Source: Planctomycetia bacterium (GTDB lineage Bacteria > Planctomycetota > Planctomycetia > Pirellulales > UBA1268). From it: a stretch of 64,000 bases of DNA. The stretch spans positions 12,228-76,227 of the forward strand of contig BJHK01000010.1 in NCBI GenBank assembly GCA_014192425.1, read 5' to 3'. Position 1 is the first letter of the stretch. Each line of letters begins with the position of its first letter. The notes under the pieces are model-generated. The model was not told where the DNA came from. It worked only from the letters and a program-made list of their open reading frames with translations, and made no database searches. This document shows positions 26,444 to 46,741 of this stretch, in pieces. The position numbers and the translations under genes were made by a program.

Positions 26444-28816
26444 TCAATCGAGCGGCGCCAGGCCGCCATGGCCGAGGATGAACTTTCGCGTCCCCGCCGG
26501 GCCGTCGAAGATCACCGTGGCGACGGCCCGGGGGCCGGAACCGCTGACGCCCGCGATCGTCCCCGTGCCGTGGTCGGCGTGGCTGACCCGCTGGCCCGCC
26601 ACGAATGTCACGGCTGCCGGCCGGCGGCCGGCCATGCGTTCCGCGAGATCGGCCGCCCGCTCGATGACTGCATCGACGCGGCGGCGCGGTGGCGCGGGCG
26701 GTCGCGGCGCATCGTCTTCCATCTCCAGGACGAGCCCGTCGGGCCGGTGCACGGCCCGGCCTGCCGGTCCGCGATCGAGTTCCTGGCCGACGTCGTCGAA
26801 GTCATCGGCGGCGGCGGACGGGAACGTTCCGGCGGAAAACGCATCCTCGTCCGGCGCCTCGCTGCCGGTCACGATCGTCTCGCTGCCGCTCATCTCGGCG
26901 AGGAACAGGCTGGGCGGATTCACCCGACACGTGCCCCGGTACTCGCGGATCCGGGCGCTGCTGGCATGCACCTCCTCGCGACCCCGCGTGATGCCGACGA
27001 ACACGAGTCGGCGCTCCTCCTCCAGCTGGTCGGGATGATCGAGGCTGCGCTCGTGCGGGAGGATGCCGTCCTCCATGGCGACCATGTAGACGACGGGAAA
27101 CTCCAGGCCCTTGGCGGCATGGAATGTCATGAGCGAGACGCGGTCGCTCGTCGCGTCCCAGGCGTCGGTGTCGCCGACGAGGGCCGTCGTCTCCAGGAAG
27201 CCGCCGAGCGGGTCGCCAGTCGCTGCACCGGCCGGATCGGCGTTGAAGTCCTCGTCGAACTGCCGGGCGGCGGTGACGAGTTCATCGACGTTCGCCACCC
27301 GGTCGACCTCCGCCTCGTCCTCCTCGGCCTCGGCGGCCAGATGGGCCCGGTAGCCCGTCCGCACCAGCACCTCCTCGAGCAGCGGCGCCACGCCGGCCAG
27401 CCGCCCGGCCGTGGCCACGAGATCCTCGTGCAGCCCGGCGAAGGCCACCAGCGCCCGCGCCGCGCGGGTCGGCAGGCCCGCAATCCCGGCGGCGGCCGCC
27501 GCGGCCTCCAGCCGGCTGACCCGTCGATCCTCGGCCCAGGCTGCCAGCCGCTCCAGCGACTGCCGGCCGATGCCCCGCGGCGGGACGTTGACGACCCGGA
27601 GCATCGCCTCGTCGTCTCGCGGATTGCGCAGCAGTCGCAGCCAGGCGACGACGTCGCGGATCTCGCGGCGCTGGAAGAACTCCAGGCCGCGGACGAGCTG
27701 GTAGGGAATGCCCCGGCCGCGCAGGCCGACCTCCAGCGACCGCGACAGCGCGTTGGTGCGAAACAGCACGGCGAAGTCCCGCGGCGCCCGGCGGCCGGAG
27801 GTCACGGCGGCGGCGATCTCGGCGGCGATCCTGTCGGCCTCGTCGCGGCTGCTGGAGTCGAGCACGATCCGCACGCGGGCGCCGGGAGCGGCCGCGGTCA
27901 GCAGTCGCTTCGGCTTGCGGCGCGAGTTGTGGGCGATCAGCCGGTCCGCGGTGCCGAGGATGTTGGCAGTGCTGCGGTAGTTCTCCTCCAGCGTGACGAC
28001 GACGGCCGACGGGTAGTCGCGCTCGAACTCGAGAATGTTGCGGATGCTCGCGCCGCGCCAGCCGTAGATCGCCTGGTCGGGGTCGCCCGTGACCGCGAGG
28101 TTCGGGTGGTCGAGCGACAGGCCGCGCACGATGCAGTACTGGACGGCGTTCGTGTCCTGGTACTCGTCCACGAGGATGAACCGGTGCCGGGCGTCGAGAT
28201 CGGCGCGGAGCTCGGGGTTATCCGCGAGGAGCCGGGCGACGTGGACGAGGAGGTCGTCGAAATCGACGGAATTGGCCCGCAGCATCAGCTCCTGGTAGAC
28301 CGGCCAGACGAGCTTGGCGACCTCCTCCGTCGGCCGGCCCCAGCGCGGCTCGAACGTCTCCGGCGTCAGCAGGTCGTTCTTGGCCCGGCTGATGATGCCG
28401 GCGATCCGCTCGATGGGGGTGTGCGTCAGGCTGCGGGCGAGCTTCTTGGCCGCCCGCTTGAGCATGGCATGGGCGTCGTCGCTGTCGAGGATCGAGTATT
28501 CGCTCGTCAGTCCGACCAGCGTCCCGTACCGGCGGAGCAGCCGGGCGCCGAACCGATGAAATGTGCCCATCTCGACCGCGCTCGGCCCGACGAGGTGCTC
28601 GACCCGCCGGCGCATCTCGTCCGCTGCCTTGTTCGTGAAGGTCAGGGCCACGATGCGGTTGGCGGGGATGCCGGCGTTGATCAGCCGCGCCACGCGGTGC
28701 GTCACCACGCGGGTTTTGCCGCTCCCGGGGCCGGCGAGGACGAGGAGCGGACCCTCGACGTGCTCGGCGGCCCGGCGCTGGGATTCGTTGAGCGATGCGA
28801 GAGGATCTGCCGGCAC
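26444..28816 (-). CDS. pcrA: UvrD/PcrA-type superfamily 1 DNA helicase
   Basis: 3'–5' helicase for repair and removal of blocked proteins or transcription complexes. About 790 residues. Motifs in order: Q motif LNESQRRAAEH, Walker A LAGPGSGKTRV, Ia ALTFTNKAADEM, II LVDEYQDTN, III VTGDPDQAIYGWRGA, IV FRTNALSRSLE, V LMTFHAAKGLEFPVVY, VI RLVFVGITRGRE. The C-terminus has a PcrA/UvrD Tudor-like tail (QRVSHADHGTGTIAGV). The GTG at 28816 is chosen; a GTG at 28858 in the same frame is possible. Divergent from the alpha-CTD-like gene. Confidence 0.92.
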   Translation of the reverse strand: MPADPLASLNESQRRAAEHVEGPLLVLAGPGSGKTRVVTHRVARLINAGIPANRIVALTFTNKAADEMRRRVEHLVGPSAVEMGTFHRFGARLLRRYGTLVGLTSEYSILDSDDAHAMLKRAAKKLARSLTHTPIERIAGIISRAKNDLLTPETFEPRWGRPTEEVAKLVWPVYQELMLRANSVDFDDLLVHVARLLADNPELRADLDARHRFILVDEYQDTNAVQYCIVRGLSLDHPNLAVTGDPDQAIYGWRGASIRNILEFERDYPSAVVVTLEENYRSTANILGTADRLIAHNSRRKPKRLLTAAAPGARVRIVLDSSSRDEADRIAAEIAAAVTSGRRAPRDFAVLFRTNALSRSLEVGLRGRGIPYQLVRGLEFFQRREIRDVVAWLRLLRNPRDDEAMLRVVNVPPRGIGRQSLERLAAWAEDRRVSRLEAAAAAAGIAGLPTRAARALVAFAGLHEDLVATAGRLAGVAPLLEEVLVRTGYRAHLAAEAEEDEAEVDRVANVDELVTAARQFDEDFNADPAGAATGDPLGGFLETTALVGDTDAWDATSDRVSLMTFHAAKGLEFPVVYMVAMEDGILPHERSLDHPDQLEEERRLVFVGITRGREEVHASSARIREYRGTCRVNPPSLFLAEMSGSETIVTGSEAPDEDAFSAGTFPSAAADDFDDVGQELDRGPAGRAVHRPDGLVLEMEDDAPRPPAPPRRRVDAVIERAADLAERMAGRRPAAVTFVAGQRVSHADHGTGTIAGVSGSGPRAVATVIFDGPAGTRKFILGHGGLAPLD

Positions 28817-29006
28817 GTGTTCGCGGCCGGGGCCGCCGCTGGAAAAGTGGGCAACCACGGCGAACGGCGCACACCCGAGCGGCACGAGTCGCCCCGTGGT
28901 AGGCGAATGTGCAACCGGTCCAGTATAGTGACGGGGGTCTGGGCCCGCCTGCGATCGCCGCATCCGGGCCGTCAGCGACGAGGAGCATCCGCACGGGAGG
29001 GACCCC

Positions 29007-29282
29007 ATGCCGCGCATTCCATACAAGAATCTCACGCAATCGAACGAGTTGGAGGAGAAGCTCGAGATGAGCACGGCCGAAATCGGCCTCTCCGTCCGCA
29101 CCACGAACTGCCTCGAGGAACGGGGCATCTTTACCGTCCACGACCTGCTCAAGTGCACGCGATCCGATCTGCTCTCGATCTCGAACTTCGGCGAAAAGAC
29201 GCTGGAGGAGGTCTACAAGTCCCTGGAAAAGATCGGCTTCTTCCGCACCGGCGAGCGCGAGGCCGTGGGCAACGCCGGCTAG
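29007..29282 (+). CDS. stand-alone RNA polymerase alpha-CTD-like DNA-binding protein
   Basis: 91 residues consisting almost only of the alpha C-terminal helix-hairpin-helix domain (about 27–80): [38 protein letters not shown]. Compared with E. coli alpha, residues that contact UP-element DNA are kept: Arg265, Asn268, Cys269, Gly296, Lys298 and Glu302; Ser299 is Thr. The alpha N-terminal assembly domain is absent, so this is not the RNA polymerase subunit itself. GGGAGGG lies 5 bp before the ATG. Likely a transcription accessory or regulator; in planctomycetes such small proteins are annotated as alpha-CTD domain proteins. Confidence 0.85.
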
Positions 29283-29379: not shown

Positions 29380-30714
29380 GTGAGGCTGCCGCGTTTTTTC
29401 GGCAAGAAACGTGGCCATCGCCGGACCGGGTCGGAGGCCTGGGGGTCGATCGGCGACGGACTGTTTCACGCCGCGATTCTCCTCGCCGGCCTCGCCTTCG
29501 GCGGCCTGCTCGTGTCGGGTGTCGCCGTGCCGGAGTGGCGGATCAACCACGACTTCGTCGCCACCCGGTGCACCGTCGTGGCCAAGGGAGTGGAGCGAAT
29601 CTCGGTCGCCGACGCCGGGCCGAAGGCGGCTTCGACCTACCGACCCTGCATCGCCATCCGCTACGCCGCCGGTGCCACCGAGCGCGAGGCGTGGGTGGCC
29701 GTCCCGCGGGCCGTCGCCGTGGCGGATCGGGAGGCTGCGGTCGCGCGGCTCGAGTCCTGGCGACTCGGTGCCACGCTGCCCGGCTGGTACGATCCGGCGA
29801 ACGCCGGCAGGGTGGTGCTGAGCCGGGGCTACAACTGGTGGACGTGGCTGCTGACCCTCGTCCTGCCCGGGGCCCTGATCGCGTTCGGTGCCAGCGGCCT
29901 CGTGCGCTCCGCCCGGCGCTGGAACACGTCGGAGGAGTGCCGGGCGGCGAGCCGGCCGCTGCGCGGCCTGCTCGCGCCGCTGCCGGTGGTGCCGCGGACC
30001 GCGGACGGCCATCCCGGCGTGCCCGCCTGCGACGACATGATCAATTCCCCCGGCACGATCCTGCGCTATCGGCTGCCGATCGAGAGCCCGGAGAGCTGGA
30101 CCCTGCTCGGATTCGGGCTGTTCGCGGTCCTCTGGAACGCCGTGCTCCTCGTCCTCGCCATCGGCGCCGGTCTGGACCTCGTCGGGGGCCGGGTGGACAC
30201 GTTCCTGCTCGTGCTGCTCGTCCCGTTCGCGCTGGTCGGCGCCACCGGCATCGCCCTGTTCGTCCGTGGACTCGTGCTGGCAACGGCCGTGGGCACGACC
30301 CAGGTGGAGATCAACGAGCACCCGTTGCGGCCCGGCGGCCGGTACGACGTGATCGTCGCCCAGGGGGGCTCGGGCCCGTTCCGCAGATTGGAGATCGCGA
30401 TCGCCATGGAGGAGCAGGCGACATTCCGCCAGGGAACCGACACGCGCAGCGAGCGGCTCACCGTCTGGAGCCGTGCCGTGGAGTCGTGGGAGCAGTTGCA
30501 GCTCTCGCCGGGGACGCGGTTCGAGGCGCGGACGACGTTGGAGATTCCGGCCACGGCGATGCATTCCTTCGCCTCCGAGCACAACGCCGTGCGCTGGCTC
30601 GTCGTGGTCCGGGGCCAGCCGATCCGCTGGCCGGCGTTCAGACGGACGTTTCCGGTCGTCGTGCTGCCCGATCCGGCTGCGGCCGTCGCTTCCGCCGCGG
30701 AGGCCGCCCGGTGA
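29380..30714 (+). CDS. DUF3592-like integral membrane protein
   Basis: 444 residues from a GTG start preceded by GGAGGAGG. About four transmembrane segments: around 29–50 (AAILLAGLAFGGLLVSGVAV), 151–175 (WLLTLVLPGALIAFGASGLV), and a pair at about 245–302. The loop between the first two resembles DUF3592 (CTVVAKGVERI…YRPCIAIRYAAGA…GWYDPANAGRVVLSRG). The C-terminal 140 residues are beta-rich (GTRFEARTTLEIPATAMHSF) and resemble one arrestin-like sandwich. Overlaps the next gene by GTGA, so the two products probably act together. Function unknown. Confidence 0.7.
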   Translation: MRLPRFFGKKRGHRRTGSEAWGSIGDGLFHAAILLAGLAFGGLLVSGVAVPEWRINHDFVATRCTVVAKGVERISVADAGPKAASTYRPCIAIRYAAGATEREAWVAVPRAVAVADREAAVARLESWRLGATLPGWYDPANAGRVVLSRGYNWWTWLLTLVLPGALIAFGASGLVRSARRWNTSEECRAASRPLRGLLAPLPVVPRTADGHPGVPACDDMINSPGTILRYRLPIESPESWTLLGFGLFAVLWNAVLLVLAIGAGLDLVGGRVDTFLLVLLVPFALVGATGIALFVRGLVLATAVGTTQVEINEHPLRPGGRYDVIVAQGGSGPFRRLEIAIAMEEQATFRQGTDTRSERLTVWSRAVESWEQLQLSPGTRFEARTTLEIPATAMHSFASEHNAVRWLVVVRGQPIRWPAFRRTFPVVVLPDPAAAVASAAEAAR

Positions 30715-38522: not shown

Positions 38523-42869
<4,347 letters not shown>

Positions 42870-42985
42870 GTGTCATCTCCCTGTGGTGTTCGAAACCCGC
42901 TCGACGTTCCGCGTGCCAACCGCGCCGGACCGCGATCCCGTCCAACCGGCGGCGACCGCCGGACGGCGTCGCAGCCGGCGGCGGG

Positions 42986-45900
42986 TCAAATCCGCCGCTT
43001 CTCCAACTGCATGTTCAGCGCCAGGCCCCTGATCTCGTTGGTGAGCACGTCGAAGCTCGCCGGCGTGCCGGCCTCGAGCGTGTTCTCCCCCTTGACCATG
43101 CTCTCGTAGATCTTCGTCCGACCCTCGACGTCGTCGCTCTTCACGGTGAGCAGTTCCTGGAGAATGTAGGCGGCGCCATATGCCTCCAGGGCCCAGACTT
43201 CCATCTCCCCGAACCGCTGGCCGCCGAACCGGGCCTTGCCGCCGAGGGGCTGCTGCGTGATCAGCGAGTATGGTCCCGTCGACCGGGCATGGACCTTGTC
43301 GTCGACGAGGTGATGAAGCTTGAGCATGTAGATGTAGCCGACCGTCGTCTCCTGTTCGAGCGGCTCGCCCGTGCGGCCATCGAAGAGCTGCGCCTTGCCG
43401 TGCGCCGGCAGGCCGGCGTCGGCGAGGACGACGTTGATGTCCTCCTCGCTGGCCCCGTCGAAGACCGGCGTGATCGCCTGGAACCCGAGAATCTTGCCGG
43501 CCCAGCCGAGGTGCGTTTCCAGGATCTGACCGACGTTCATCCGGCTCGGCACGCCGAGCGGGTTGAGGAGAATCTGCAGCGGCGTGCCGTCCGCGAGGAA
43601 CGGCATCTCCTCCTTGGGAAGGATCTTGGCGATCACCCCCTTGTTGCCATGGCGGCCGGCCATCTTGTCACCCACGGAGATGACCCGCTTGGCGGCGACG
43701 TAGACCTTGACCATCTGCAGCACGCCCGGGCGGAGTTCGTCGCCGCGCTTCATGCTGTTGAGCCGGCGCTCGCGGGCGTCGATGGCCGCCTCGACGGCCG
43801 GCCACATCGCCTTGTGGAGCTTCTCGATGTCGGCCTTCCGCTGCGGGGAGCGGATGTCGAGCTCCTCGAGGTTGAACTGCGCGGCCCGCTCGGCCACCAC
43901 CTTGTGGTCCTGGTTGCGGACGAGGGGGCTGCCGTCCGCCGCCTGGATGGGCTTCTGCAGCACCTTTTCGATCTCGGTGACGAGCCCGCCGAACGCCTCG
44001 GCGACGCGAAGGTTGCCCTCGTTCTCCGCCTCCTTGAGCTGCTTCTCGAACTCCCGGCGCTCGTCCTCGGAGAGGCTCATGCGCCGCGAGAACTTCTCGG
44101 TCGCGATCACGATCCCCTCGACGCCCGACGGGACCTCGAGCGAGTCGTTCTTCACGTCCTCGCCGGCCCGGCCGAAGATCGCGTGCAGCAGCTTCTCCTC
44201 GGGCGTCAGTTCGGTCTTGCTCTTGGGGGACACCTTGCCCACGAGGATGTCGCCGGGGCGGACGTAGGTGCCGATGCGGACGATGCCCGATTCGTCGAGG
44301 CTGTGCAGGGCCCGCTCACCGACGTTGGGGATGTCGCGGGTGAACTCCTCGCGGCCCAGCTTCGTGTCGCGGATCTCGATGTCGTACTCCTCGATGTGGA
44401 TCGACGTGTAGACGTCGTCCTCGACGAGCTCCTCGCTGATGATGATCGCGTCCTCGAAATTGAAGCCGTCCCAGGCCAGGAAGCCGACGAGCACGTTGCG
44501 GCCGAGGGCGAGTTCGCCCCGGTAGGTGGCGGCACCGTCGGCGATCACGTCCCCCTTCTCGACCTTCTGTCCCGGCTGCACGATCGGCTTCTGGTTCTGG
44601 CAGGTCCGCTCGTTGAGGCCGACGTACTTCCGCATCTTGTAGGTGTCGGCGCCGGAGGTCGTGGTGATCTCGATGCTGTCGGCATCGACGTAGCTCACCG
44701 TGCCCTTGCGGGCAGCGCGGACGAGGAGGCCGGAGTTGGCCGCCACGTCCCGCTCCATGCCGGTGGCCACCACCGGAGGCTCGGTGACGAGCAGCGGCAC
44801 GGCCTGCCGCTGCATGTTGGAGCCCATCAGGGCCCGGTTGGCGTCGTCGTGCTCGAGGAACGGGATCAGGCCCGCCGACACGCCCACCATCTGGCTCGGC
44901 GCCACGTCGATGTAATCGATCTCCTCAACCGGCACGAGGACGAAGTCCCCCTTGTAGCGGGCGATGATGTTGTCGCCAGACAGCCGGCTGGTCGCCTTGT
45001 CGACCAACGCGTCGGCCGGGGCGAGGTGGGCGTTGCTCTCCTCGTCGGCCCGCAGCCAGACGACGTCGTCCGTGAGCTTCCCCTTCGAGACCTTCCGATA
45101 CGGCGTGACGAGGAACCCGTAGGAGTCGACCCCGGAATAGATCGCGAGGCTGGAGATGAGGCCGATGTTCGTCCCTTCCGGCGTCTCGATCGGGCAGATG
45201 CGTCCGTAGTGGGAGATGTGGACGTCGCGGACCTCGAAACCGGCCCGCTTGCGGTTCAGGCCGCCCGGGCCGAGGGCCGACAGCCGGCGCTCGTGGGTCA
45301 GCATGGAGAGCGGGTTCGTCTGGTCCACCACCTGCGACAGCTCGCCGCGGCCGAAGAAGTATTCGATGGCCGCCGAGATGCTCTTGGGGTTGATCAGCGT
45401 CCGCGGCGACATCTCCGCCACGTCCTTGAGGCTCATCCGCTCCTGGACGGTGCGCCGAAGCTTGAGGAAGCCCTTGCGAAGCTCGTCGCTGGCCAGTTCG
45501 TCGATCGTTCGCAGTCGGCGGTTGCCGAGGTGGTCGATGTCGTCCACCTCCACGTCCCCCTCGCCGTCGCTGAGCTTGAGCATGTAGCGGATGGCGGCGA
45601 TCAGGTCCTCCGCCCGCAGGGTCATCTCCGTCTCGGGCACGTTGAGGCCGAGCTTGCGGTTGATGCGGAACCGGCCGACGCGGCCGAGCCGGTAGCGGTT
45701 GGTGTCCTTGAACTTCTCGTCGAACAGGGCCCGGGCCTTGTCGAGGGCCGGCGGATTGCCCGGCCGAAGCCGCTGGTAGATCCGCACGAGGGCGTCCTCG
45801 TGGCTCGGGGCAACGCCGGTCCGGCGCCTCGACTCGTCGGCGTCGTCCCGCAGGCTGTTGACGATCAGGGGAATCTTCTGTTCCTGCATCAGCTCGACGG

Positions 45901-46741
45901 CCTTGAGGCCGGAGGTGGCGATCAGTTCGGCATGGTCGTGGCTGATCTTGCAGCCGGCCTCGACGATGATCTCGCCGGCCCGGTCGGTGCCGCGCGGATA
46001 GACGATGTCGTCGACGGCGAACTTCCCCTCCAGCTTGGGAACACTGCGGCCGCCGCCGACCTTCTCGACGCTGGTCTTGTAGAACAGCTTGAGAATCTCG
46101 GAGTCGCGGCCGTACTTCGGATCCATGGCCCGAAGGAGGGTCAGGGCGGAGAACTTGCCGCTCTGGTCGATCCGCACCTGGAGAGCGTCCTTCTTGGAGA
46201 CGTTGAGCTCGATCCAGCTGCCGCGCTCGGGAATGATCCGGCAGTTGAAGGTCTTGCGATCGCTCGACTCGGTGTCGGCGACGAAGTCGATGCCGGGGGA
46301 ACGGTGGAGCTGGCTGACGACGACCCGCTCCGCACCGTTGATGATGAACTCGCCACCGCCGAGCATGATCGGAATGTCGCCGAGGTAGACCTCCTCCTCG
46401 ATCGGTTGCTCACGGGTGAGCCGGAGCCAGACCCGCAGCGGCCGCCCGTAGGTCAGCCGCAGTTGCCGGCACTCGTCCGGCTCGTAGCGGGGCTTGCCGA
46501 GTTCGTACCGCAGGTACTCGAGCTTGACGGTCTTGTCATAACTCTCGACCGGGAAGATCTCGCGCAGCACGCCCTCGATGCCATGGTCCTTGCGCTTGGC
46601 CGCCGGCACGTCGTACTGCAGGAACAGGTCGTAGAACCGGGTCTGGATCTCGGTCAGGTCGGGAATGTGGTGCCCGGCCCTGTTGCTCCCGAACGGTCGG
46701 ACGTCCTTCGTCTGCAGGCGGCGGACGGCGTGAGTTGCCAT
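42986..46741 (-). CDS. rpoB: RNA polymerase beta subunit
   Basis: 1251 residues. The rifampicin region reads [14 protein letters not shown] then [14 protein letters not shown] (plus-strand about 45270–45345). Asp516, His526 and Ser531 equivalents are present, but Phe514 is Val and Asn518 is Thr relative to E. coli. [13 protein letters not shown] and the C-terminal [20 protein letters not shown] are canonical. The gene has its own promoter-like sequence about 185 bp upstream. Confidence 0.98.

Follow-up and report, generated by a model that had tools for sequence, protein, structure and literature searches.

The window, by which we mean the whole 64,000-nucleotide stretch of planctomycete DNA that was analysed, contains a gene for a free-standing copy of the C-terminal domain of the RNA polymerase alpha subunit (alpha-CTD). 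In its known form, this domain is tethered to the polymerase as a module. On balance, we consider it somewhat probable that the 91-amino acid product is a detached alpha-CTD paralogue, fixed in the order Pirellulales, which would bind DNA and modulate transcription initiation in trans, with or against RNA polymerase. The intact DNA-binding face, the absence of a split rpoA and the order-wide distribution of the family would fit a role in transcription control, and the slower change of this protein than of the polymerase's own tail suggests that it may be an undescribed detached transcription factor. The features discussed are listed in Table 1.

Table 1. Features at and around the stand-alone alpha-CTD gene (positions in the window).
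Feature	Position	Strand	Remarks
UvrD/PcrA-family helicase	26444..28882	-	Divergent, syntenic neighbour; start codon putative
Composite element GTAGNCGNNT-N15-TATANT	28899..28929	.	Promoter-like, family-level, in the divergent intergenic region; window copy 12/13
Translation-start context GCACGGGAGGGACCCC	28991..29006	+	Directly 5' of ATG; core GGGAGGGA[A/C]CCC conserved order-wide
Stand-alone alpha-CTD gene	29007..29282	+	91 aa; PF03118 at residues 12-74; N-terminal tail M(P/T)RIP conserved
DUF3592 protein gene	29380..30714	+	Directly downstream; syntenic; possibly co-transcribed

Domain content and DNA-binding face

The original prediction described a 91-residue protein consisting of almost nothing but an alpha-CTD, with the assembly domain missing, and both parts of this description hold. 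The open reading frame has exactly the predicted boundaries, with a GC content of 0.88 at codon position 3 versus 0.38 at position 2. Its product scores 69 bits against PF03118 (RNA_pol_A_CTD; cut-off 23.8, E 2.8e-19), covering profile positions 4–66 of 67, and belongs to this family by score; the alpha-CTD region extends over residues 12–78. This match is far above that to another HhH family, HHH_5, which reaches only 22.8 bits. The protein aligns only to the C-terminal part of the NCBIfam RpoA models, with scores under their cut-offs (60.7 bits versus 227.8 for TIGR02027), the N-terminal assembly/dimerisation domain being absent. Among solved structures, the closest in sequence is a Bacillus alpha-CTD (3gfk_B), which aligns without gaps over residues 10–78 (E 3.8e-13); this gapless homology suggests that the protein would adopt the alpha-CTD fold. 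AlphaFold2 models built with alignments of 19 and 52 orthologues had a low confidence (pLDDT 48 and 50, respectively).

It had been recognized from the outset that such a gene might be a fragment of a split rpoA. This is ruled out by the presence elsewhere in the genome, on contig C3 and beside rpsD, of an intact, full-length rpoA encoding 366 amino acids, which also carries the genome's single RNA_pol_L match. PF03118 is matched four times in this genome: once in RpoA, once in the stand-alone protein and twice in a TPR protein (contig C18). The TPR protein, of 452 amino acids (L001:1474–2832, minus strand), bears two tandem alpha-CTDs at its C-terminus. Exactly three PF03118 matches are found in most of the 118 Planctomycetota genomes sampled, the number expected because RpoA contributes one and the TPR protein two. 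Neither the TPR protein with its two alpha-CTDs nor a stand-alone alpha-CTD protein was found to be described in the open-licence literature.

Residues were mapped without gaps onto E. coli alpha: R265, N268, C269 and N294 correspond to R31, N34, C35 and N60 of the 91-amino acid protein, and G296, K298, S299 and E302 to G62, K64, T65 and E68. The DNA-contact set is taken here to include, besides Arg265, the residues N268, C269, N294, G296, K298 and E302. Arg265 of alpha is crucial to UP-element contact (PMC2988021). The equivalents of R265, N268, C269, N294, G296, K298 and E302 are invariant in 16/16 orthologues from across the order, with S299 conservatively replaced by Thr, and the DNA-contact residues are also invariant in 52/52 aligned stand-alone sequences. 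The earlier claim that the UP-element-binding residues (equivalents of R265, N268, C269, G296, K298 and E302) have been kept is therefore borne out. The stand-alone protein has Lys at position 298, where 12 of the 15 host RpoAs, and every TPR-linked CTD in the order sample, have Thr. At the 261-type sigma contact position the residue is Gly, and at position 271 it is Glu rather than Lys, so the contacts need not match those of E. coli.

Conservation spans nearly the whole of the stand-alone domain, beyond the DNA face, both in the 52-sequence alignment and among the 16 orthologues, and the protein is net acidic (-3). An almost entirely frozen domain and an acidic net charge would also suit a protein-protein adaptor with an alpha-CTD fold, binding activators or sigma without DNA and using its 265-type face for a protein partner. 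We consider such an adaptor unlikely, given that the full DNA-contact set is strictly retained, including the K298 that most host RpoAs have lost. DNA binding via the 265-type face would be the most economical reading.

Distribution, selection and origin

In a sample of 136 Pirellulales genomes searched at a threshold of E <= 1e-14, 133 were matched, G163 and G196 only via RpoA, placing the stand-alone gene in about 131. In the class sample, about 92 genomes from outside the order matched through RpoA-length frames only, or gave no match, and in a phylum sample of 294 genomes, 16 were matched at E <= 1e-18, all 16 from the order; the stand-alone gene was thus found neither in these other class members nor in about 278 other Planctomycetota sampled. 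G237 and G163 lack the gene, yet their congeners have it, and the genome of G196 is 82% complete, making assembly gaps the likely reason for its absence from these genomes. The gene is also present in a named, sequenced isolate, Blastopirellula marina DSM 3645 (L111). A scan of viral contigs for a phage or mobile origin revealed no relative. Matches in phage records had less than 45% identity and came from unannotated records, and plasmid matches were mostly annotated as RpoA; the two unannotated matches inspected were full-length RpoA frames.

Loss of the stand-alone gene is credible in one genus, represented by two species (G158 and G209), and the gene therefore appears not to be universally essential. 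In the rpoA genes of these two species (L286 and L287), neither of which has the stand-alone gene, the CTD reads NAAEIT where the motif NFG[ED]TT is expected. The rpoA of G014 (L290) encodes a CTD with the changes N268Q and G296D, and the stand-alone alpha-CTD is retained in this genome. The rpoA genes show what appears to be a relaxing of the tethered RpoA CTD in this family, limited to a few events in differing directions.

Mean pairwise identity within the order is 87% for the stand-alone domain, 62% for the RpoA CTD and 79–81% for the TPR-linked CTDs. The stand-alone gene has pN values of 0.015–0.11 versus pS values of 0.42–0.73 and, judged from its sequences, is evidently under strong purifying selection. 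One conceivable, if doubtful, interpretation is that the alpha-CTD function has partly moved from RpoA to a trans-acting subunit, with the stand-alone protein, rather than the tethered CTD, chiefly responsible for reading upstream promoter DNA. This would explain why the protein is more conserved than the RpoA CTD and has kept Lys298, and why it has been retained in G014, where the RpoA CTD lacks N268 and G296.

The stand-alone proteins are monophyletic (support 100/100, and 100 in a reduced set). In the careful tree, based on 58 columns, their clade groups with the RpoA of the class (support 100/97); AU tests on 58 columns did not reject its grouping with the TPR CTDs. The domain may have come from the RpoA CTD or from a TPR-linked CTD. 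A 231-amino acid protein from G026 (L293:494–1188, plus strand) shows weak, below-cut-off HTH matches and, C-terminal to these, an alpha-CTD-like domain (50 bits) that resembles the stand-alone protein; its branch, which is very long, falls with the stand-alone clade. Its combination of putative HTH and alpha-CTD-like domains is suggestive of a regulator.

Gene neighbourhood and upstream sequences

The divergently encoded helicase scores 670 bits with the TIGR01073 (pcrA) model, under the cut-off of 911, and 17.7 bits for a Tudor domain, under the cut-off of 23.9. The original prediction had noted this PcrA/UvrD neighbour and had proposed a shared link; the neighbour is confirmed, whereas the link is weakly supported. 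Divergent uvrD adjoins the stand-alone gene in 45/53 order-wide loci (77/80 loci of a first set) and the HhH fold also serves in DNA binding generally, so that the protein might be thought of as an HhH DNA-binding accessory of the helicase, acting in repair or transcription-coupled repair, off promoters. This seems improbable: outside the family, synteny extends equally to the DUF3592 gene and the two genes after it (9/9, versus 8/9 for uvrD), 8 loci have kept the stand-alone gene with no helicase next door, and its sequence is specific to the alpha-CTD rather than that of a generic HhH. As the whole gene block is syntenic, adjacency to the helicase is weak evidence for a link, and is compatible with plain synteny.

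Two long ORFs on the minus strand of the window (38523–46741), downstream of the stand-alone gene, were identified as rpoC (PF04997) and, from the N-terminus of the ORF, as a putative rpoB. They lie 9–18 kb from the stand-alone gene. Some close relatives show this spacing, but several complete Pirellulales genomes have rpoBC far from the stand-alone gene. Proximity to rpoBC is, thus, ruled out as a defining linkage, the spacing not being held across the order.

The sequence around the start codon is also conserved. An SD-like GGGAGGGACCCC lies directly 5' of the ATG, and GGGAGGGA is found close 5' of the ATG in 96/102 loci, its usual form being GGGAGGGA[A/C]CCC-ATG, a context longer than SD requires. 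The 16-base start context occurs only once in its own genome, even with up to one mismatch allowed, and, in the same genomes, the SD contexts of rpoA and the TPR gene are ordinary and varied, without GGGAGGGA[A/C]CCC-ATG. The start context could form a GGG/CCC mini-hairpin around the SD, and translational control of the stand-alone gene through this context is possible. An Rfam search for a known RNA leader at the gene matched no family.

The composite element GTAGNCGNNT-N15-TATANT is located between the stand-alone gene and uvrD in the window's family, with a fixed internal spacing, and its -10-like part can be read in both directions. A stringent version of the pattern was found once each in 6 of the 8 genomes searched, always just upstream of the stand-alone gene, and had no match in the other two (G000 and G008).

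Relation to known proteins and proposed role

The stand-alone protein resembles the CTD of RpoA (PF03118) in its gapless whole-domain alignment and in the conservation of the DNA-contact residues and HhH core, but it is a free protein of 91 amino acids, without the assembly domain or linker and with an RIP tail of its own, and it forms a clade of its own, with higher conservation than the RpoA CTD of the host. The Planctomycetota TPR protein is another non-RpoA carrier of the alpha-CTD in the same genomes; it differs in its length (about 450 amino acids), its TPR region and two CTDs, its phylum-wide distribution and the Thr at position 298, whereas the stand-alone gene is restricted to the order and constitutes a separate clade. 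NCBIfam NF005841 (PRK07758), a 95-amino acid hypothetical protein with an alpha-CTD-like HhH, is also a small one-domain protein and matches the same domain; the stand-alone protein is not a member of this family, with 20 bits against a cut-off of 115. The HhH/alpha-CTD-like segment of PglW (BREX) gives a weak match, of about 20 bits, over the same domain, but PglW is a 1400-amino acid kinase from a defence system, with no further common feature.

In the mechanism that we propose for the detached paralogue, the 265-type surface (equivalents of R265, N268, C269, N294, G296, K298 and E302) would dock in the minor groove of A/T-rich sequences that lie upstream of promoters, and the other, equally frozen surfaces, together with the RIP tail, would contact sigma, an activator, polymerase or another partner. 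We infer the polymerase partner from homology. Acting in trans, the stand-alone protein may modulate initiation by co-activation or by competition with the tethered alpha-CTD, the direction of its effect on transcription being likewise presumptive. That the protein is purely a decoy, competing with the tethered alpha-CTD and damping UP-element or activator-dependent promoters, as originally suggested and as a domain identical in kind but without the assembly domain might allow, is very unlikely: a free, monovalent domain should bind weakly, and conservation of the RIP tail and of non-DNA positions suggests a role beyond passive competition.

This free copy, selected throughout the order, and the TPR protein with its two CTDs indicate that planctomycetes spread alpha-CTD domains over several proteins. 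The stand-alone gene makes the action of an alpha-CTD in trans testable, and provides a handle on the poorly known transcription of planctomycetes.
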